A stretch of DNA of 64,000 nt from a virus: positions 20,883 through 84,882 of IMG/VR virus record IMGVR_UViG_3300022927_000011. One strand, given 5' to 3'. Every line of letters starts with the position of its first letter. Position 1 is the stretch's first letter. The notes beneath the pieces are model-generated. The model was not told the DNA's origin and did no database searches. It worked only from the letters and a program-made list of their open reading frames with translations. Positions 3,001 to 31,231 of this stretch are shown piece by piece. A program made the translations under genes and the position numbers.

Positions 3001-6000
3001 TCCGTTGGTTGGAGTATACAAACTGCCGCCTGTAATAGAACCGTTATCTACACCTGTTAGTATACCATAGCGTACTTCTGTTACAGCACCCTGAGCGTTT
3101 CCGTCAGCTGATGTAACAATAGTACGTGCAGTACCTGCTATTGTTTTCGAAGCTTCATTATCGCCAGTATTGGCAATAGTAAATGATGTTGCTGTCGGTG
3201 TGCTTAACACAAGTGTATTTTCATCGTATGTTGTATCATCTGGAACTAAAACTTGTACATTGTTATCAACTTGTAAGTTGTGAGCACCGCTTGTTGTGAT
3301 TGTAGCAATGTTGCTTGTACGTTCAACATCTGTAATAACTGCACTAGTAAATGTATAGTCGACGTCTGGATCAAGAACCAAATACTGACTGCTGTTTGAA
3401 CTACGTAAGAAGAAGTTGTCAACAATCTCTGACACTGCACCTTTTGCAGTTGGGCGTACTCCAGAATCAACTCCATTAACAAACAAGTTTGGTGCTGTTC
3501 CACTTACATCCCAAGGATCGCCTGTACTATCATCTTCAGTGTTCCACGCTCCTGGAACACTAGCAATAAGTATGTTTCCGCTCGATGCATAAGAACCTTT
3601 TGCATATGCAATAGCGTCGGCAATGCCGGGTTGTGTAATCACATCACCGTTAGTAACATTTGTAATATTTCCACTAAGTGTAAGTTCAACTTGCTCGTAG
3701 TTTTCTGTAGCAATGTCACCAGCTTTTAGATCTATTGCCGGAATATCATCAACTTGTTCTAGTCTTGATAGGTAGCCTTGTGTGTTTGTGTTGGTAAACT
3801 GACGTGTTGCCGGAATCAAATCTCCGTTTAACTGACCGTTGGTATTAAGCTGAACAATAGCACCCGGAACGGCAGCTGTACTAACTGATTTGTCAACAAA
3901 TCCGCCTAGTCTGTTGTTAATAAACGAACGTACTGCTAACTGTGTGACCATACGTGCATCACTTGGTCCGCCAAGTTCGTCGTCGCCTAAGTTAACACTG
4001 GTTGAGATTTCTTCAATAGCAACGTCACTCAAACTCAAACGCAAAGCATCGAGCTCGTCCACCTGAACTTTGTTTCTAAATGTAATGTTACCTGTTCTGT
4101 TGAACGCTGTAATAAAGTCACCAACTTTAAAGTCACCAAGTTCGTTTGTACCTGATGAGTAAACACGTCCTGGAAGTTCTTCAAACTGTTCAAACTCACT
4201 TCTTGTGTTACCACCGTTTTGTGGAAGTGCGTTGTAGTCAACACCCGAACCTGCGTATTCCCAAGTATGAGAAGAACTGTTAACAATCGACGGTCTGTGG
4301 AACCAAAGTTGTTTCTCAGGCAAGTTAACAGTGTTTGTTAAACTACTGCTACCGTCAGTAGCAGTAATCGAGAATGTTGCAGTACCTAAACCTAACTTTG
4401 TAGCTGCTTCGTTAACACCAATGGTTGAGTTTGGCGAACTAGCATGGTCTTCTGCAATAATACTTGTTTCGTCGAACTGTACTCTAAGCACACTAGAACC
4501 AACTGCAACTTGTTCAATACTTACAACTAGTCTACGCTCTCTTGGTTCCCATTTTGTAACAATAGCACTGTTATTATTAACACCAGTTGTACCTGTAATA
4601 GTTCTACCAGGCACAAACTCATAACTTTCAGCTCCTGATTCTAGTATTAGTGTTTGATATGTTGTATGAGAACTTATAATTTCTTCAACAAAGAATTCAA
4701 TAACGTTTGAGAAGAACTTGTGAGTGTTTGAACCTGCTTCAATAAGATTAACATCAAAATCTCCTGATTCGTCAAATGTTAAACTAAATTCGTCATCATT
4801 AATGATTTTAATATAATAAGTCTGTTCTGCATCAAGTCCTTTAATAGGAGGATTGCCATCTGGATCATATATAACTTTTTGACCATTTGAGAATCCGTGA
4901 TCTACAATTGTAATAACATCTGCTAAAACATTAACGGCTGTAGCAGCATCAAATGTAGTTTCAGTTGGTGTAAGTTTGAAGTCGTTTGTAATATCGCCTT
5001 CACTGCTCACTTCAGTTGGATCTGGAAGGTCGTCTGGATCATTAATAATAGTTTTTACAACATCAAACTTTGCACTTGCAAAATCTTGTACGGCTGCACT
5101 AACTCCAGTAAGATATGCTAATGTTTCTGTCTTTGCTTGCTCAATAGCAGCAATAGTTTGTAGTTCTTGACCACTAATACTAATACGCGAACTATCTTGT
5201 AAGTTTTGTGTATAATAAGCCAAGCCAGCACTACGTGAATATCTGTTGCCTGTATCCCAAACATCGTTGGCTACTGCTTCGACAATAAGTTGTGTGTCTC
5301 TATTACATTTTGATTGATTATAATCAAAGTTATACCAAATATTTGCTTGTATTTGTTCGTTAATAAACTGAGTAACATTCTGTGCAATATTGATTTGACC
5401 TGTGATTCCTAGTTCATTGAAGTCTGCTTGTAGTGCTGCACCAGTCCAAGTTATATCTGGCTCAACTCTAGTTGGCTCTGTAGCACCATTACTAGTTAAA
5501 TAAGCAATGATTTCGTCTAGTCTAGCTGCTGCATAATCAGCTGCCGCTTCACTACCTGCTGTACCTGATACATCTTGTGTTTCTGTATTTCCTGCGGTTA
5601 CAACAACTGTTTGTTCTTGTATAACTTGTTTTATTATTTCTTTTAGTCTACCATAAGCAGCAATAGTTTCCTCTTGCTGTCCAGCACCGTATTGTGCTAC
5701 ACCGTCGATAAAATATGCTAATGCTGCAACTAATGTTTGTAAGTTTCCGCCATATGTTAAATCATAAGATAACGCATCAACAATAAGTCCGGTATCTCTT
5801 TCACATTTTGATTCATTATATGCAAACCCTGGTACAAACGGTGAGTTTCCTGCGGCTATTTCTGCATTTAACCAAGCAGTAAGTTCGCTTTGTAAAAATG
5901 TTTTGTTTGCATTTATTTGTAATACTGCATTTTCAAAACCTGCATCACTAGCGTTATCTGTGCCGCCTGTTGGCAATGGACGAGAATATGCGGCTGCAAC

Positions 6001-21080: not shown

Positions 21081-22175
21081 TTATAATCCAGCTAGACGTT
21101 TAAGATCAACTACGTTTGAGTCGATTGCGTCTGCTTTGATGTCATTGTGTTGTGTTCGGTTGCCTGTTACTTCTTTTGCCTCTGATAGTACTGCCTTCTT
21201 CTTCGCTGGAGTATTACCGTCTATTACCGCCGGCAGGTATTTGTCAAACGATGCTCGTAAACGAGATGTTTGAACTGATTCCAGTAAGTCTGTCATAATG
21301 TCACGTTGGTCGTTGCTCAATGGCGAAACCAATGCATTAATAGTGTCTTTGCGGGTGTTTGATTCGTTAATCGATTTAACTTCGATTGACTTTGCTTCCG
21401 CAAGTTTGATCGCTTTAGCCGCTGCTTGACGTGCTTCTACAATTTGTTTGTTTTTTGTATCTACAACTTTAAGCAGTTTTGATGTTTCTGAACTTTCATT
21501 CAAATAACTGTGTTGATATTCGTTAGCAAATGCTTCGAATAGCTTACGGCCAAAATCATTTTCACGTGCTTGATCAATATCTTCTTTTAGTGCCGAAATT
21601 TCTTTCTTAAGTCCTTTTGACACTGCTTCTGATACTAATGCTGCACTTTTCTTAATAAAGTCAGTTTTAACTTTATTAACATGTGCTTTGCCTTCACGTA
21701 CTAAACGTACTTTTGTTTCGGCAAGATCTTTTTTATCTTCATAAAACTCTGCAAGTTCTTTTGCAAGTGATTCAACTACAAACTCTTCTAGAGCAACAAA
21801 CTTGTCTTTTGTTACTTTTTGATCTGCGTGTAGTTCCTTGATTTCTTTTGCTAGTTGTTCACTAACAAATGATTTCATTAAATTGGCATTTTTACGCTGT
21901 GCAACTGCAAACTTAGCTTTTGCTTCTGCTAGTTGTTTGCGGTCATCGTGGAACTCTGCAATTTCTTCTGCTAGTTTTTCACTGAGCATAGCATCAATGG
22001 CTTCCACCATTGTTGTTTTGTCATGTGCATATTTTTTAGCAAATTCTTCGCGTAGTTCCGCAGTGGCTTGAAGTTTATTTTCTTCAACTTTAGCGTTCCA
22101 TGCTTCCTCTAGTTCTGAACGCACTTCTTCCGATAGTGCTGAGTTTTCGAAGAGTGATTTAAGTGAGTCTAACAT
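21081..22175 (-). CDS. 22: prohead core scaffolding protein gp22
   Basis: 364 residues, almost entirely charged alpha-helix and coiled coil, as expected for the gp22 scaffold around which the gp23 prohead assembles before gp21 degrades it. Helical repeats of the pattern E-x-LAKEIxEL/F-(Y/H)-x-DxK start near residues 66, 106 and 135, with a degenerate one near 183. The C-terminal part (PLSNDQRDIMTDLLESVQT, SRLRASFDKYLPAVI) is the conserved gp22 end. Gene lies between protease and capsid genes, with AGGAGA before ATG. Confidence 0.9.
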   Translation of the reverse strand: MLDSLKSLFENSALSEEVRSELEEAWNAKVEENKLQATAELREEFAKKYAHDKTTMVEAIDAMLSEKLAEEIAEFHDDRKQLAEAKAKFAVAQRKNANLMKSFVSEQLAKEIKELHADQKVTKDKFVALEEFVVESLAKELAEFYEDKKDLAETKVRLVREGKAHVNKVKTDFIKKSAALVSEAVSKGLKKEISALKEDIDQARENDFGRKLFEAFANEYQHSYLNESSETSKLLKVVDTKNKQIVEARQAAAKAIKLAEAKSIEVKSINESNTRKDTINALVSPLSNDQRDIMTDLLESVQTSRLRASFDKYLPAVIDGNTPAKKKAVLSEAKEVTGNRTQHNDIKADAIDSNVVDLKRLAGL

Positions 22176-22192: not shown

Positions 22193-22816
22193 TTAGCGGA
22201 GTTTGCTTATTACATCTAATAAGCTCTCTTTTAAATATTTTTGTGCCTGTTTATCGCCTTGTACTTCCCTAGATGTTAGGAACGCCTTATAACCGCCTCG
22301 GGTGTTCATAAGGTGTTCGTAAATTGGTGTTGGGTAGGCGCCCGGAGCACTTGGCTGGGCAACTACATCTACTGTTATAATCTCAAAATCGGAAACTTCG
22401 CCATTGCCACTTTCGCTGACATTGCCGCTACCTCTCGATGAAACACCTAGTTTAACACCTGCTTCAAGCATTGTTTTAACTAGTTGTCCCATCGGAGTTG
22501 GTAGTATTTTTAGTTTACCGTAACCGTTTGGGCCATCCATCCACATTTCTGTAATCATATGGCTTACACGGTCAATATTAATGTTAAGTCCTTCAGGATG
22601 ATCTACTTCGCCTAGTACTGAAAAACCATTGCTAATCTGCTCGTTGAGCGTGGTGACAGCCCTGCCAATTTCGTTAACGGGATATACACGTTGATTTGCG
22701 TTGCGTACTCCGCCTTGAATGCAAATACCTTTCATAAAAAGATCTTTGCCTTCATTAGCAGACTCAACAATCACTTTAGCTTGGTCAAAACTCAAACTTT
22801 CACTTAGTAAATTCAT
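22193..22816 (-). CDS. 21: prohead core protease gp21
   Basis: 207-residue serine protease of the T4 gp21/herpesvirus-assemblin-like group that cleaves gp22, gp23 and core proteins during head maturation. Catalytic signatures are visible: His73 in GEVDHPEGLN, Ser in GVSSRGSG (residues 124-131), and Asp150 in TVDVVAQPSAPGA. The N-terminal GGVRNANQRVYP is also typical. Start supported by AAGGAC 6 bases upstream; 10 bases separate it from the acidic core gene. Length is close to T4 gp21 (212 aa). Confidence 0.93.
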   Translation of the reverse strand: MNLLSESLSFDQAKVIVESANEGKDLFMKGICIQGGVRNANQRVYPVNEIGRAVTTLNEQISNGFSVLGEVDHPEGLNINIDRVSHMITEMWMDGPNGYGKLKILPTPMGQLVKTMLEAGVKLGVSSRGSGNVSESGNGEVSDFEIITVDVVAQPSAPGAYPTPIYEHLMNTRGGYKAFLTSREVQGDKQAQKYLKESLLDVISKLR

Positions 22817-24795: not shown

Positions 24796-24803
24796 TATTT
24801 ATA
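24796..24803 (-). promoter_or_regulatory. T4 late promoter core TATAAATA over gp20 stop
   Basis: Exact T4 consensus TATAAATA followed by CATTATGATA on the minus strand. The TAA inside it is the gp20 stop codon. The same 18 bases recur before the 448-aa gene at 31256. Confidence 0.7.
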
Positions 24804-26553
24804 TCGTTTGTGCCGGATTTGGTTCTGCGCCATCGCCGCCAAGTTCGTTTCCTGTATTTGTTTCGGGTGCAGTATCAGTGCCGCCGTCAATGCCGCCTTC
24901 ATCTGCACCTAACTCGTCTTCAAGTCCGCCAAAGTCGCCTGCAAGATCGGCGCCGCTTAATCCAGCACCTCTCATTTCGCCTGCCATGTCGTCAGTAACA
25001 AGATCGGTTAAGTTTTCGTCATTTTCTTCACGCCATAAACGTTCGTTCTCTGCTATTTCTTCTGCACTTAATCCTAAGAATCTTTCAAGTGCAAATCTAT
25101 TTGAAATATAAGGAACAGCTGCCATACTTGTAAATGTGCTTATTCTATTGTTGTCTAGTTCTGCTTGTCTATATGCTGCAAAGTTCTGTGGCGGTGTTAA
25201 TCGTAAGTCAAACATTGCATAATCAATGTTTGCACCTTTACTTTGTAAAAATAGTTTAAACTCACTATTAAAATCTTCAGCCATCATATCTTGCAAACGT
25301 TCGCAATATTTATTAAAGCGAAGTTCTTGAATATATGCTGTGCCTACTCGGCCATCATTATACTGCGATGCACCGTCATCGGCGCCGGTAGGCAAGTAGC
25401 TGCTTGGAATACGTAAGCCGCGTACCAGTTTGTTAGTAAAGTATCTAAGGTCATCAATCTCGCCTAAGTTAGTGCCGCCTGGTAGTGTTTCAACTTTTGA
25501 TCCTCTACCTTCTGCTGTTTGAGGGAAGAAGTAGTCTTCGTTGATTGACAGTGGATTATAACTACTGTCTATAACATTTGTACCTCCACCTGTCTTACTT
25601 GGGATACGCCTTTGATGTATTTCAGTTTTAACACGTTCCACAAACTGCATAGCAAGGTGTGAAGGCATGTTGCCCACATCAACGTAGAATACTCTGCGCT
25701 CTGGCGCACGTTGGACACGATAGATAATAATCGCATCCTCAAGCAACTCTTTCTGCTTGTATACTTTAAAAATACTCTCAAGCAAACTATTACCGAAAGG
25801 ATAGTTTTGATCTAACCCTTCACTTAAACTTAAATGTAAAACATGTTGTGCATCAATATATGTTTCGTCGTGTTCTTGTGCAAATCTACTAGTGTTTCCA
25901 CTTGGTGTATGATTATTACCTACGCCGGTTCCTCTTTGAACTTGCTGATATCCGTTAGTTCCGCCTGGTCCATAACTGTTTTGTGTGTTTAACGGTGTTG
26001 CTTCCAATGCACCAAATGCAAAGTTTAGATTTTTTACAACATACTGCTCTGGTTTTTTGCCTTCTGATTCATTTACAATGATTTTTGTAATCTGACTAGG
26101 ATCAACATGAAATAGTTTCTGTGTTTCGGGATCTCTAATAAAAAACTGATCGCCATACTTAAATGTATTGCGTATAGTTCTAAACATACGTGTTTCAAAC
26201 TTGTTTAGTTTACACCATTGCTGTAGATACTGCCCAATAACTTGTACTTCGCTGTTTGTAGGGGTGCCTTTAAAGTCAAGACGGAAGTGTGTTTTGTTGT
26301 CGTTGTTTTTTTGTGTACAAAATTCAGCTAGAATATCAAGTGCAGCATTTACTTCGCTATCACTATCCATAGTATTATACTGATTATAACGTTCAATACG
26401 ATTTGGCGAGCCGACATATACATCTGGCAAGTGAGATGAGTAGTTGGCCGCAGCTGGACCTATTCCGTTGTTTCCTTTTAAACTAAAGGGACTGTACCCT
26501 CCGTTTATATTGTCACTCGTCGGAACTGGAGTAAAATGTTTTTTCCAACTCAT
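24799..26553 (-). CDS. 20: portal vertex protein gp20
   Basis: 584 residues (T4 gp20 is 524). The portal ring forms the DNA entry vertex, nucleates the prohead and later joins the neck. Recognisable blocks include PDVYVGSPNRIERYNQYNTM, AEFCTQKNNDNKTHFRLDF, FKYGDQFFIRD, EGLDQNYPFGNSLLES, RVQRAPERRVFYVDVGNMP and LRIPSSYLPTGADDGASQYN, all typical of gp20. An acidic Gly-rich C-terminal tail follows FLGLSAEEIAE. ATG overlaps the stop of the upstream tape-measure-like gene (ATGA), indicating coupling. Confidence 0.95.
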   Translation of the reverse strand: MSWKKHFTPVPTSDNINGGYSPFSLKGNNGIGPAAANYSSHLPDVYVGSPNRIERYNQYNTMDSDSEVNAALDILAEFCTQKNNDNKTHFRLDFKGTPTNSEVQVIGQYLQQWCKLNKFETRMFRTIRNTFKYGDQFFIRDPETQKLFHVDPSQITKIIVNESEGKKPEQYVVKNLNFAFGALEATPLNTQNSYGPGGTNGYQQVQRGTGVGNNHTPSGNTSRFAQEHDETYIDAQHVLHLSLSEGLDQNYPFGNSLLESIFKVYKQKELLEDAIIIYRVQRAPERRVFYVDVGNMPSHLAMQFVERVKTEIHQRRIPSKTGGGTNVIDSSYNPLSINEDYFFPQTAEGRGSKVETLPGGTNLGEIDDLRYFTNKLVRGLRIPSSYLPTGADDGASQYNDGRVGTAYIQELRFNKYCERLQDMMAEDFNSEFKLFLQSKGANIDYAMFDLRLTPPQNFAAYRQAELDNNRISTFTSMAAVPYISNRFALERFLGLSAEEIAENERLWREENDENLTDLVTDDMAGEMRGAGLSGADLAGDFGGLEDELGADEGGIDGGTDTAPETNTGNELGGDGAEPNPAQTI

Positions 26554-28757
26554 ATTGTACCTTTCAGCATATTGCCCTGTAAACTCTTTGTAGCTCTAAA
26601 TGTTTTTTGTTGCGCACTCACTGAAGATGATTCTATAGTTACAAGTGTTTGCAACTGTTGTATCATTGTATCAAACTTACTTGCCATTAAGTTACTCATT
26701 TGTTCTGCAACATTATTATTACTTATCGTATTTTGTCCATTTGTACCATTGTTCTGAACACTAGCATCAAGACTTTTAATGCCTTTCATAAGATTTTGCA
26801 TAACGCCCATACTAGTGTTTGCACTCATAACATTTGCTGGCCCTGATATAAATTCCGGTCCAGCTTCGCCTACCATACCGTACTCACCTGCACCAATGCG
26901 GCCACCGTTTGCAAATCCTCCACTATACCTCGATGGATTAGCTTGATATCTTGCAACTTTACTTAATGTTTCGGCTTGTATATCTGCTAATCCTTCAACT
27001 GAGTTTATTATTACATCACTTAGGTGTGCTTCAGCTGCTGCAACTCTTTCAACTGCACCCGCTGCAATTGATGGTATCTCGCTTAATAATTCAGCTTGAG
27101 CAGATTCAAGTGATGCACGAGCAGCAGCAATGTCATTTTGTGTGGTTGTAGCAGTTTCGTTAACATTTGTATCAGTAGTTGCTCCAGTTGCAGTTGTAGT
27201 TGCTCTTAAAGCCTCTTGTGTGGTTGTAGCAGTTTCGTTAACATTTGTATCAGTAGTTGCTCCAGTTGCAGTTGTAGTTGCTCCTAAAGCCTCAGCATCT
27301 GAAGTTGCTGATTGCATCTGTTCTCTCAGTTGGGCTACTATACTTCCATGACCTTGTTTTATTACTTCGCTATTTGTATCAAGAAATTCGGCTGCATTAA
27401 ATAAGTTGTTGATGCCGCCTGAAAGTTCGTTGGCAATTGTTTCTGCGCTTGGCATCACCTCTGATATTTTATTCAATGCGGCAACTGCAACATTCTCAAT
27501 GTGCGGAATAGTAGTTTCCATTACTGTTGTTGTTAGTGTGCGTAAATCTTCTTGTATGCCAATAGTTTTGTCAAATATACCTGTAGTCTGTTCCATCTGA
27601 CGAGCTTGCTCTTGTAGTATTTGATTGTTGAGCGTTTCTCTAGCCTCTTCAGCAGTCATAGTTCCGTCGCTAACACTATCGACTGCATTCTTGTAGTTGT
27701 ATCCAGCAGCACTTGCGTCTGCAAATGCACTTGATATATTAGACATACCACCTAGCATTGCAGTTTGTCTAAACTGTTCTGTGTCTTGGTAATCCATTGC
27801 AGCACCAGTTGCTGCTTGTAAACTATCTTGGAAACTACGTATATCGCCAGCGTTAAACTGTTGGGCAGCAGCATACAAGTCATCGGCACCGCTGCCCATA
27901 GCAAGCAATGCAGCTCTTGTACTTTCAGTTGTAGGAGCTCCTCTAAGTGCAACATCTACAAATGCGTCAGCAGCATCTTTACCTAATGTGTTTTGCAGTT
28001 CTACCAACTTGGTGGTAAATGCAGTTTGTTCTTCAGCAGTTTTATTTGACAAAAATGCATTAACATCACCTTGACGTCTACGTTCTTTCATTTCATCTGC
28101 AAGAGCGTCACGCTGTTTGCCTGTAAGTTTTGACAATCCGTCTAGTTCAACCATTAGATTTTTAGCAGCAGCAGCTTGTTGTTCTACACTTGCTCTATCT
28201 GTTCTACTGTTAGCATCACTTAGTTCGCCATAGAGGGCAAGATTTTCATTTATGTCAGCTGTTGTAAATCCTAACTGTCGAAGTTTAGTGCCTAGTTCTG
28301 CACTATCAAGTATTGTAGTTGATACTGCTTTAAATCTAGATATAGCTATATCTGTTGTGCCACCGAAAGCTCTTAAAGATTCAGAGTTCTTTTTCAAGAA
28401 TCCTGTCATTTCTTCAACACTCAATCCAAGTTCAGCAGCAGATACTTTTACATCTTTTATTTCTTTGCCAAATGTAGCACCTACACTGGTAAGTTGTTGA
28501 TATTCAGCAAGACTAGCTTCGGCGAACTGCGACAACCCATCAACTAGTTTGCCAACAGTTTTTCCAAACAATCCAGTGTTAGCTGAAATAGCGCCACTGT
28601 ATGCACTTAGTTGTTGCTGTCCAGTAAGAAGTGCGCCGCCTAGGCCGAGCGCAGCTTTAGTAGTACCTGATAGAGCTTTTCCAGCTGCGCCTGCACCGGT
28701 GCCGAGAGTACCTAATAATGTATTTAAACCACCGCCGGCTGTTGTTTCTTCTGCCAA
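26550..28757 (-). CDS. tape-measure-like tail protein
   Basis: 735 residues. N-terminal Gly/Ala-rich hydrophobic stretch (GALLTGQQQLSAYSGAI), long helical body with Ala/Gln-rich coiled coil, and near the C-terminus the motif GGRIGAGEYGMVGEAGPEFI, very common in phage tape measures (GxxGlVGExGPEl). This makes a tail-length ruler (gp29 role) the best call, though similarity to T4 gp29 (590 aa) is not obvious. Contains a fresh 26-residue tandem duplication (residues about 489-540). Location directly upstream of gp20 and beside the hub/chaperone pair is unlike T4. Other possibility: a structural internal protein. Confidence 0.6.
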   Translation of the reverse strand: MAEETTAGGGLNTLLGTLGTGAGAAGKALSGTTKAALGLGGALLTGQQQLSAYSGAISANTGLFGKTVGKLVDGLSQFAEASLAEYQQLTSVGATFGKEIKDVKVSAAELGLSVEEMTGFLKKNSESLRAFGGTTDIAISRFKAVSTTILDSAELGTKLRQLGFTTADINENLALYGELSDANSRTDRASVEQQAAAAKNLMVELDGLSKLTGKQRDALADEMKERRRQGDVNAFLSNKTAEEQTAFTTKLVELQNTLGKDAADAFVDVALRGAPTTESTRAALLAMGSGADDLYAAAQQFNAGDIRSFQDSLQAATGAAMDYQDTEQFRQTAMLGGMSNISSAFADASAAGYNYKNAVDSVSDGTMTAEEARETLNNQILQEQARQMEQTTGIFDKTIGIQEDLRTLTTTVMETTIPHIENVAVAALNKISEVMPSAETIANELSGGINNLFNAAEFLDTNSEVIKQGHGSIVAQLREQMQSATSDAEALGATTTATGATTDTNVNETATTTQEALRATTTATGATTDTNVNETATTTQNDIAAARASLESAQAELLSEIPSIAAGAVERVAAAEAHLSDVIINSVEGLADIQAETLSKVARYQANPSRYSGGFANGGRIGAGEYGMVGEAGPEFISGPANVMSANTSMGVMQNLMKGIKSLDASVQNNGTNGQNTISNNNVAEQMSNLMASKFDTMIQQLQTLVTIESSSVSAQQKTFRATKSLQGNMLKGTI
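27138..27293 (-). repeat. 78-base tandem duplication in tape-measure-like gene
   Basis: Two adjacent 78-base copies (27138-27215 and 27216-27293) that differ by one base, changing Gly to Arg in the encoded 26-residue unit (EAL-G/R-ATTTATGATT..). In frame and near-identical, so recent. Confidence 0.95.
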
Positions 28758-28823: not shown

Positions 28824-29663
28824 ATGGAAAAAACAGAAAGTCCACTAAAAAAATATCGTAGACAGCCCAAGTTATATTTTAATATTCCTAGCAACGGAAA
28901 ATGGTATAATGAAAAAGTATTAGCTGAAAATACGTACACTAATCTAGCTGTGTTTAGTATGACAGCTAGTGATGAAATATTATTTAAAACACCAGATGCA
29001 CTTATCAACGGCGATGCAACTGCAAAAAATATTAGTAGCTGTATTCCAGCTATATTAGATCCGTGGGCTATAAAAACATTAGATCTTGATGCAATACTAA
29101 TAGCAATACGAATGTCTTCGTATGGCGACACAATGAATGTTTCCGCTAAATGTAAAAAATGCGGCTCTGACAATCAATACGAAGTTGGACTACAAAAATA
29201 TTTAGATTACTTTTCAACAAAAGAGTTTGAAGATAAAGTATACTACGAAAACTTTGTTGTGCATATCGAGCCATTGAGCTATAAACAATGGACTGATATA
29301 CAAAAACAACAAACAGCATACCAACGTGCATTAAATTTAAATGTCAGTAAAATCAAAGAAGAAGCTGAAAAAGAAAAGTTTATACAAGATGTTATTGATA
29401 AAATAAATGTGTTGGTTGCTCAAGCAATACTTGATCAAGTTGTTGCTGTTGAAGTTGACGGGCAAGTTGAAACTGATAGAAAAGAAATAGATGATTTTCT
29501 CGAGCAAGCTGACGTAGGTTTATTTCACGAACTTAAAAGAGTGATTGAAAAAAATACATTGGAATGGCGTCTCGAGCCTGAATCAATAAAATGTAATGAA
29601 TGTGAGCATGAAGATATTGTTAGGATATCATTGGACACATCAGATTTTTTCGTACAAGGCTAA
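28824..29663 (+). CDS. 26: baseplate hub / tail-assembly protein gp26-like
   Basis: 279 residues with AGGA 8 bases upstream. Matches the T4 baseplate gp26 type (208 aa in T4): YFNIPSNGKWY, FSMTASDEILFKTPDALING, IPAILDPWAIKTLDLDAIL, AIRMSSYGDTM. Two Cys pairs are visible, CKKCGSDNQYEV and CNECEHEDIV, which may bind zinc. The T_TTT_TTC heptamer near its 3' end and the overlapping -1 frame suggest that a fraction of ribosomes makes a longer product. Isolated as a rightward unit between two leftward blocks, next to the tape-measure-like gene. Confidence 0.75.
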   Translation: MEKTESPLKKYRRQPKLYFNIPSNGKWYNEKVLAENTYTNLAVFSMTASDEILFKTPDALINGDATAKNISSCIPAILDPWAIKTLDLDAILIAIRMSSYGDTMNVSAKCKKCGSDNQYEVGLQKYLDYFSTKEFEDKVYYENFVVHIEPLSYKQWTDIQKQQTAYQRALNLNVSKIKEEAEKEKFIQDVIDKINVLVAQAILDQVVAVEVDGQVETDRKEIDDFLEQADVGLFHELKRVIEKNTLEWRLEPESIKCNECEHEDIVRISLDTSDFFVQG

Positions 29664-29670
29664 CGAGCCT
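29645..29670 (+). promoter_or_regulatory. probable -1 ribosomal frameshift signal
   Basis: Slippery heptamer T_TTT_TTC at 29645-29651 in the gp26 reading phase, 5-base spacer, then hairpin AGGCT-AACG-AGCCT (29657-29670) that contains the gp26 stop codon (29661-29663). The -1 frame is open across this site. Confidence 0.7.
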
Positions 29671-29884
29671 AGAAGACTCTGATATACTTTCGTTAGCCAA
29701 AGATTTTGAAAATAATATCAAACAAATAAAAGACAACGCATACCGACTTAGTTGGTACATGCGTGGCGGGATCTCAGTTGATCAAATACTTTACGATACA
29801 GATTTAGAAGATCACGATATCATTGGCAATATTATAAAAGATAATATTGAAAATACCAAAAACTCAAAGATGCCGTTGATTTAA
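29651..29884 (+). CDS. 51: gp51-like extension expressed by -1 frameshift
   Basis: The -1 frame relative to gp26 is open from 29624 to the stop at 29882-29884, but has no ATG/GTG/TTG start with a ribosome site; its first Met (WYMRGG) is in the middle of the conserved part. The encoded sequence (YRLSWYMRGGISVDQILYD, then DNIENTKNSKMPLI) matches the small protein called gp51 (hub assembly catalyst) downstream of gp26 in marine T4-like phages. With slippage at 29645 the fusion would be 353 aa (276 + 77). This copies the logic of lambda G/GT tail chaperones. Stop abuts the stop of the convergent 448-aa gene. Confidence 0.65.
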   Translation, partial: RTRLTSLEDSDILSLAKDFENNIKQIKDNAYRLSWYMRGGISVDQILYDTDLEDHDIIGNIIKDNIENTKNSKMPLI

Positions 29885-31231
29885 TTACTGAGGGCCTGGC
29901 ACTGCATCTGGATTCGTAGGCATACCTGGTTCGCTAGTTTGTGCAGTAGGTTCAGCAGGATTCTCAGATGCATCTATAGGATTGAGACCTAACGTACCTG
30001 TTAGCAGTGTTTCTCGTCTACCCTCAGGTATGTAAGGAACCAATCTACTTTTTTGACTTGGCGGAAACAATAATGTTCCAAACACTAACTTGGCCCATTC
30101 ACTTTCGCCGTAGTACTCTCCTGTAACACCTTCGGTTTCTTTTGGATCAAACCCTGATATTGCTTTAGCTAGAGCGCCAGTGCCAAACTTTCCATCAAGA
30201 GCAATAGCAGCTTGATTGGTAATATTTTCTAGACTTCTTCCTGTATTAACAAAAATATCTTTGAATGTGCTATCAACAATAATTTCTGCCAACCAGCGTT
30301 GTATACTTGATGTACTTAAAATTAGTGGTATTACTATCCACAATGCTTCAGTGACAATCATACTTAAAAATGCAGCTGGAGCACCTGCACCTGTGAGTGC
30401 AACAGACAGTTGTCCGGCTCTAACTACTGATCTTATTGGTGCCATGAGTGCTCTTACAAATCGAATTTTTGTAAGTAATCTTGCACATTGAGCTGCATAA
30501 TAGGCTACTAGTTGTCCTTGGAGTATGTTTCTAATATCTTGTAATCTTTGAACGTCTCCACCAGATTGTTCAGCTTGTTCAATTTCTAGATTTATATTTT
30601 CAATTTCTACCATCATTCCCCAGAAGGGACCTACAATAGATGCTGTTGTTCCAAGTAATCCTATTACAACTTTAAACATTCGATTTTGTAGGAGGCGGCC
30701 GAGTCTACTACTACGAGCTTTTTGTACATTTGCGTAATCTTCTGCTGTTGCATTTCTAATAGCTCTACCAAGAGAAAACGATCTTTTAAAATCGCCTTTG
30801 AGTTTGCCATCTTTGATTTCTGTATCGATTGTGTTTGAAATTTGTGCAGGAGTTCTACTGCTTAAATCGTCAACTCTTGCTTGTATTTTTTCTGCATCTG
30901 CTCGAGTTGTAGTATTAACTACAGTTGTTGTATCAGGTAGAGTTACCATAAATCTATCGTCAGCAAGTCGTTGTACACCAGGTGTTAGTTTAAATACACC
31001 TCGACCAACTGGGTTACTTGTTCTCCACTGAGATGTTAGTTGTCTGCCAACACCAGTTGGTGCAGGTCTTCCATTACTGCCGTCAGGTTTGACCTCAGTC
31101 CACATTTGTCCGCGCCACTTGTACGTTTTACCATCGAGATCGGTAGTAGTACCAACTTCAGGAACTCGTGTATCAGTTTCATCTTCGAATATCAAATGTG
31201 TTTTTTTTAATGTTACTTCGCTCAGTTTCAT
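29885..31231 (-). CDS. unknown virion-type protein with membrane segments, 448 aa
   Basis: Begins MKLSEVTLKKTHLIFEDE. The middle has hydrophobic helices likely to span or insert in membrane: about residues 185-207 (MFKVVIGLLGTTASIVGPFW) and 275-310 (LTGAGAPAAFLSMIVTEALW, then IPLILSTSS). A charged helix lies between them. The C-terminus is Pro-rich. I do not recognise the family. An amphipathic, membrane-segmented protein under a late promoter could be an internal ejected protein or a lysis or membrane factor; neither is proven. The start is chosen because the late promoter lies 25-32 bases upstream; the ribosome site is weak. Confidence 0.55.
   Translation of the reverse strand: MKLSEVTLKKTHLIFEDETDTRVPEVGTTTDLDGKTYKWRGQMWTEVKPDGSNGRPAPTGVGRQLTSQWRTSNPVGRGVFKLTPGVQRLADDRFMVTLPDTTTVVNTTTRADAEKIQARVDDLSSRTPAQISNTIDTEIKDGKLKGDFKRSFSLGRAIRNATAEDYANVQKARSSRLGRLLQNRMFKVVIGLLGTTASIVGPFWGMMVEIENINLEIEQAEQSGGDVQRLQDIRNILQGQLVAYYAAQCARLLTKIRFVRALMAPIRSVVRAGQLSVALTGAGAPAAFLSMIVTEALWIVIPLILSTSSIQRWLAEIIVDSTFKDIFVNTGRSLENITNQAAIALDGKFGTGALAKAISGFDPKETEGVTGEYYGESEWAKLVFGTLLFPPSQKSRLVPYIPEGRRETLLTGTLGLNPIDASENPAEPTAQTSEPGMPTNPDAVPGPQ

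Follow-up and report, generated by a model that had tools for sequence, protein, structure and literature searches.

Frameshifting of the G-T kind has been described as widely conserved in long-tailed phages 'except T4' (PMC5009743, in the part of the text available). For T4 itself, gp26 and gp51 have been presented as hub assembly chaperones, and gp51 as essential, absent from the final particle and of unknown function (PMC3004832, likewise available in part). The key paper on the T4 pair is Vladimirov, Gautam and Davidson (2022, Virology 566:9-15). The accessible sections of two other papers cite it: the PRFect paper (PMC10885494) for some T4-like phages in which a short gene and a fused longer gene replace the frameshift, and the paper on Pseudomonas phage Adele (PMC12846349) for poly-T frameshift signals in the TAC-N genes of T4-like phages. 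This kind of system is already in print, and much of the family-level idea probably is too. In the literature searched we did not meet the breadth across jumbo phages, the codon control or the covarying stem described below, and none of the papers listed treats a T_TTT_TTC site in jumbo phages.

The window analysed here, 64,000 nucleotides from an uncultured relative of giant phages, corresponds to positions 20883-84882 of virus record IMGVR_UViG_3300022927_000011 (84,882 bases). It contains a gene (Table 1) that very probably encodes a two-form tail assembly chaperone of the lambda G/GT type, read by -1 programmed ribosomal frameshifting.

Table 1. Features of the putative frameshift locus and its neighbours (positions in the window)
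Feature	Position	Strand	Remarks
gp26-like/PF12322 (phrog_150) gene, short form	28824..29663	+	279 aa, proposed chaperone body; E 2.3e-12 (PF12322), E 1.5e-13 (phrog_150)
Slippery heptamer T_TTT_TTC	29645..29651	+	GAT TTT TTC in frame 0; kept in relatives
Spacer	29652..29657	+	6 nt
Frame-0 stop TAA	29661..29663	+	inside 5' arm of 10-bp stem
-1 frame extension	29645..29884	+	79 codons and stop, predicted helical domain; long form 353 aa
5' arm of covarying 10-bp stem, proposed stimulator	29658..29667	+	
Loop of 10-bp stem	29668..29688	+	21 nt
3' arm of 10-bp stem	29689..29698	+	
5-bp hairpin of the first-pass annotation	29657..29670	+	drawable; comparison gives no support
Divergent neighbour	26550..28757	-	735 aa; tape measure unproven
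T4-type portal (gp20)	24799..26553	-	PF07230, E 6.4e-107

The short-form ORF ends in GAT TTT TTC GTA CAA GGC TAA, and reading it confirmed that the heptamer lies in the gp26 phase, as the first-pass annotation had it. Between 29624 and 29884, and so across the site, the -1 frame has no stop before its terminal one, and its last sense codon ends at 29881; the length of the fusion predicted in the same annotation (353 aa, here 274 + 79, beside the 279-aa form) agrees with both frames as read. TTTTTTC occurs 16 times and TTTTTTT 22 times in the window, both strands counted, and only two of its ORFs of at least 100 aa have either of them in phase. The other of these two lies antisense to the gp26-like gene; reading on beyond its stop in the -1 frame meets a further stop after 11 codons. 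At the level of sequence, the frameshift cassette is real.

Elsewhere in the window, a TTTAAAA heptamer (22229-22235, minus strand) lies in phase near the end of ORF 22193-22816 (minus strand), whose -1 frame stays open for 370 codons past the stop, through the next ORF. The next ORF is itself preceded by AGGAGAGGAG, shortly ahead of an ATG at 22175, so this site is probably due to chance.

The short form scores 47.5 bits against PF12322 (T4_baseplate), for which the curated cut-off is 24.5, and its match to phrog_150 (baseplate hub) is at E 1.5e-13. A search of 50,697 phage records with it gave 61 with a match at E 1e-5; among the matches listed, 60 in number, identity is 22-29% and most records are longer than 280 kb. 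In profile comparisons by hhalign the jumbo-phage body matches T4-type gp26 at 97.8% (E 1.2e-12). Its match to the corresponding body in one-gene phages, cyanophages among them, is at 98.9% (E 2.1e-17), and that to gp51 is weak (55%, E 1.2e-4). Cysteines 110, 113, 257 and 260 are invariant in 11 jumbo sequences. When a second PF12322 gene was sought in the source record (84,882 bases, maybe a fragment), this gene was the one match.

For the predicted model of the short form (mean pLDDT 87.7, pTM 0.82), similar folds were found among predicted viral T4-like hub proteins (best E 1.3e-22). A Foldseek search of the PDB with the body model gave no match at E 0.001, and a PDB sequence search with the body profile returned only three designed constructs (E at least 0.57). 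On VIA re-alignment, model residues 2-100 paired with the HK97 tail assembly chaperone 2ob9 over 86 of 107 residues at rank 31 (rmsd 4.2), with a Z of 5.6 in a list where values below 8 may reflect only a common arrangement. Among the 50 rows shown, 2ob9 was the only one lying wholly within the first 100 residues, most others falling on the long-helix region; no other chaperone fold appeared in those rows, which does not exclude one. The alignment with 2ob9 hints that the two folds may be related.

We next consider how the site is kept among relatives. The 194 loci read comprised the window, named phages and IMG/VR contigs, and became 193 when one with a broken frame (L012) was dropped. Two of the searches for relatives each contributed the best 80 of more than 570, and 10 of the 61 phage records with a body match were fetched as loci. 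Besides L012, two loci that were cut off (L143 and L148) and one with a partial match (L017) were left out; the T4-type loci L119-L124 stand outside the one-gene counts, and L116 is a second copy of 121Q. The loci are not independent, 78 of the 193 belonging to one cyanophage cluster, and counts by cluster are given for that reason.

The heptamer T_TTT_TTC is found in 189 of the 193 loci, T_TTT_TTT in two and neither in two, so that 191 loci have an X_XXY_YYZ heptamer in phase with the frame that precedes the shift. At the level of 50% protein identity clusters the site is kept in 27 of 29 (25 + 2). The position of the frame-0 stop ranges from 2 to 16 codons from the P-site codon while the heptamer stays constant. 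As a control, T_TTT_TTC spells only 22 of 419 Phe-Phe pairs in the ORF bodies of the same loci (ORFs of at least 150 codons from stop to stop on both strands, some of which are not genes), and a Phe-Phe motif alone therefore does not explain the codon choice. Among the 15 distinct sequences of the window's clade, GAT TTT TTC is invariant and the preceding Ser uses four codons. The comparison of homologous loci that had been suggested, heptamer conservation against synonymous drift, thus came out in favour of the site.

The two loci with no canonical heptamer are both from Ackermannviridae. One (L031, 2897-2956) reads GAA ATT TTC ATT TAA and the other (L033, 2960-3030) GTT TTT CGC TAATG, with -1 frames of 53 and 58 codons past the stop, respectively; another slip, or reinitiation, may be in use there. 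L012, a near relative of the window, has its frame break within the gp26-like gene (match 3001-3836), perhaps a contig error.

Turning to the -1 frame itself, over the 72 codons past the frame-0 stop the third -1 codon position changes most in all 11 clade members compared with the window (of 14 distinct others). Between the window and L006 the substitutions at the three -1 codon positions number 1, 0 and 7 (seven of eight at the third), and between the window and L139 they number 17, 8 and 38. The -1 frame, judged by these substitutions, evolves like protein-coding sequence. The extension is predicted to form helices (mean pLDDT 86.4), and a search of its fold against viral models found none at E 0.001 (best 0.27). 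A tblastn search recovered the extension in three records, two of Atu_ph07 and one of Phosso, where it again follows TTTTTTC directly in the -1 frame. Reading the frame located the extension in phages further removed.

The first ATG, GTG or TTG codon of the window's extension is codon 39, the M of WYMRGG. Among the 27 cluster representatives, 17, the window being one, are free of such starts through the 18th codon beyond the site. The claim that the -1 frame has no usable start of its own accordingly holds for the window and 16 other representatives and fails for the remaining 10, which do have such a start; in five of these 10 (L001, L023, L030, L032 and L156) an ATG lies within the 18 codons. 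At the stop, Atu_ph07 and Phosso show an ATGA overlap and 121Q a TAATG. In such loci separate initiation is possible. Public records call parts of the -1 extension small hypothetical ORFs with starts well inside it (L001 4115-4237, L024 3867-4043, L025 3873-4031 and L023 3945-4139).

The jumbo-phage extensions are mutually related (profile comparison, 97.9%, E 4.2e-13). Against the gp51 C-terminus the window/jumbo-type extension gave 57% and E 1.1e-4 over 36-38 residues around the last helices, and a second comparison 8% and E 0.004; against the cyanophage-type extension the values were 6%, E 0.007 and 15%, E 0.002. Against pooled gp51 and cyanophage ends the match rose to 76% (E 2.2e-5), again local over 36-38 residues. 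The window's extension had no match to phrog_634, the C-terminal domain of T4 gp51. The cyanophage-type extension matches both the gp51 C-terminus (96.6%, E 6.2e-10) and phrog_634 (E 2e-30). From these comparisons the window's extension is likely to be homologous to the gp51 C-terminus; the label 'gp51-like' given to it earlier is upheld by its place, whereas by sequence the resemblance is weak and local.

Downstream of the site, the first-pass annotation had drawn a 5-bp hairpin (29657-29661 with 29666-29670) after a 5-base spacer. Across 10 distinct clade sequences, 78% of its cells are paired and no pair is changed on both sides, and we rejected it as stimulator in favour of a 10-bp stem after a 6-nt spacer, which shares the 5' arm region. 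The 32 clade loci give 15 distinct sequences, every one of which entered the alignment (10 of them differ over the part aligned), and the stem was defined after inspection of these same sequences. In it 99% of cells are paired and five of the 10 pairs are changed on both sides. Its covariation score was reached by none of 500 shuffles; the number of double-sided changes, on which the result is weaker, was reached by 47 of 500 in the window's clade. When the arms were slid, at most 44% of cells paired. RNAalifold predicts the same 10-bp stem, as does folding of the single strand at -13.7 kcal/mol (z -2.10), a value equalled or bettered by 7 of 200 shuffles.

In a sister set of ten sequences, a 10-bp stem that encloses a longer loop begins at the same offset (97% paired; two pairs changed on both sides, a number reached by 15 of 500 shuffles), its rows having been picked for having the stem, so that they are not independent evidence of its existence. 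In an unselected count, a stem scoring at least 8 with its first base at +6 was present in 26 of 93 sequences less than 80% alike, against 0.5 in dinucleotide shuffles. Folding just after the site gave z below -2 in 10 of 27 representatives, against 0-4 of 27 at five other places. Half of the jumbo-type sequences (32 of 64) lack a stem scoring at least 8, and 16 of 77 cyanophage-type sequences have a stem in the +5/+35 register, which was chosen from the data. As the stem is absent from many relatives that keep the heptamer, the comparison marks the heptamer as the shared element and the stem as a clade-level addition. In the 25 nt before the heptamer, a short Shine-Dalgarno-like word was seen in 12 of 27 representatives, at varying distance and with no control.

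Three other explanations were weighed against frameshifting. One would have two overlapping genes, the -1 frame being a separate small protein translated by reinitiation near the frame-0 stop. A separate small ORF is indeed annotated in Atu_ph07, Phosso, 121Q, SCTP-2, GAP32, XaC1, Vibrio 2.275, S-RIM8, EXVC043M, PhiW-14, phi-ST2 and VAP7, and in Atu_ph07, Phosso, 121Q and VAP7 the stop shares bases with an ATG, VAP7 being without the heptamer. Yet the annotated starts vary by record, from overlap with the stop to deep inside the domain, and the window and 16 other representatives of 27 offer no ATG, GTG or TTG up to 18 codons past the site. Moreover, reinitiation would not need T_TTT_TTY, which is nevertheless kept in 27 of 29 clusters. 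We consider two separate genes unlikely as the explanation of the locus.

Mixed frames could also arise earlier, by transcriptional slippage on the T run giving mRNAs of both frames. The run of six T is present (eight in EXVC043M, seven in CM1), but it ends in C at the exact X_XXY_YYZ phase in 189 of 193 loci, and the covarying stem 6 nt downstream in the window's clade fits a ribosomal stimulator; slippage of the polymerase seems very improbable here. That the locus is a one-frame gene with a missing base, through sequencing error or chance, is hardly credible: contig frame breaks do occur, as in the gp26-like gene of L012, but the same break at the same heptamer recurs in independent isolate and contig records. 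Programmed ribosomal frameshifting is thus the reading we carry forward.

The neighbourhood of the gene is partly shared. The order of portal, large gene and gp26-like gene is the same in RaK2, PA5oct, 121Q, GAP32, XaC1 and Phosso, and it is not shared by Atu_ph07 and Vibrio phage 2.275. In the six phages with this order, the place of the divergent neighbour is taken by a structural or hypothetical protein; for the counterparts in RaK2, 121Q and GAP32 the family hit is phrog_14121 (virion structural protein), and the RaK2 protein was labelled by its depositors as similar to tape measure. Neither the neighbour nor its counterparts matched a tape measure family above cut-off, and the earlier description of this neighbour as tape-measure-like could not be confirmed. 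A convergent ORF of 448 aa (29885-31231, minus strand), with no family match above cut-off, lies on the other side; its stop and that of the -1 frame are immediately adjacent.

The two T4 proteins bear directly on this locus. T4 gp51 matches PF12322 over residues 1-201 of 249 and T4 gp26 over residues 1-206 of 208, and the gp26 and gp51 profiles match each other at 99.5% (E 1.7e-22), which shows by sequence comparison that T4-type gp26 and gp51 are paralogues. In eight two-gene T4-type phages (T4, RB43, phiP4-3, phiAS4, SFHK24, PhT2-v2, PEi26 and Aeromonas phage 31), the heptamer was found in the last 11 codons of gp26 in none, and gp51 carries the extension in frame in all eight. The gp26 of T4 and PEi26 keeps Phe-Phe near its end, spelled TTC TTT. 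A fusion in one frame, which the first-pass annotation had counted against a shift, does exist in the form of T4 gp51, but it stands beside a separate short paralogue, so that such phages can still make both forms.

A tree of 47 bodies, rooted by midpoint only, gathers the 16 gp26 and gp51 sequences into a single group among the one-gene lineages, with support of 92/92, which is below the cut-off of 95 for bootstraps; gp26 and gp51 each occupy one side of a branch (100/99). This fits a single duplication that replaced the frameshift in the T4-type lineage, a direction that we infer. In RB43 (L205, 1201-2494) both genes lie on one strand, the gp51-type gene first and the gp26-type gene overlapping it, while the T4 pair is divergent; the RB43 arrangement may be an earlier, tandem state of the duplication.

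We infer that ribosomes shift at the window's site, at a rate such that most would stop at 29663 and yield the 279-aa gp26-like form, while a minority would slip back one base at T_TTT_TTC and yield the 353-aa form with its helical C-terminal domain; that the 10-bp stem-loop 6 nt downstream would stimulate this slip; and that the products would act as chaperones. If the pair works as lambda G/GT does, the tape measure protein would be coated by the short form, tail-tube or hub subunits would be brought in by the extension, and the virion would contain neither form. The earlier proposal of a -1 cassette making a short and a long gp26-type form, as lambda G/GT does, draws support from the conservation of the heptamer and the protein-like -1 frame, and further from the 17 of 27 representatives without early starts, the covarying stem of the clade and the two-gene phages without the site. 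Its suggestion that T4 gp26 and gp51 are of chaperone type agrees with the available text of PMC3004832, where both are hub assembly chaperones. At the level of sequence, short forms and forms lengthened at the C-terminus were found, encoded either by a single gene or by two paralogues.

For the family as a whole, we lean slightly towards a history in which the frameshifted single gene is ancestral in T4-related contractile phages, from cyanophages to giant phages, and sets how much short chaperone is made relative to long. In one lineage of Straboviridae, duplication with in-frame fusion would have taken its place once, giving gp26 and gp51 and doing away with the slippery site, and the window's clade and some cyanophages would separately have gained stem-loops at a fixed spacing of 5-6 nt that tune the ratio. 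With respect to each other, gp26 and gp51 are by our comparison the short and extended versions of one protein; in relatives, a single gene seems to yield both versions by ribosomal slipping. The comparison makes it possible to test the short-to-long ratio, annotators can join orphan small ORFs to the preceding gene, and the covarying stem offers a defined, testable candidate for a stimulator in an uncultured phage clade.

Among known systems, lambda G/GT (PMC5009743, in the part available) is like the window's gene in deriving a short form and a -1 frameshifted long form from one gene. The two differ in that the body here belongs to PF12322 and has four invariant cysteines, the likeness drawn here being one of gene layout. 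The HK97 tail assembly chaperone 2ob9 aligns with residues 2-100 of the model, with 7% identity and a middling Z, and leaves the rest of the short form uncovered. The TAC locus of Pseudomonas phage Adele and the Vandenendeviridae (PMC12846349, in the portion seen) is similar in arrangement: a myovirus TAC gene ends in a poly-T site at which a -1 shift is conserved, and the downstream frame is annotated as a separate gene, as in the window's relatives. It differs in having a GTTTTT motif and in belonging to a different phage group. T4 gp26 and gp51 share the PF12322 body itself, gp51 being that body with a C-terminal extension. In T4 the two are separate genes and gp26 is without the heptamer, whereas the window has one gene with a predicted shift.
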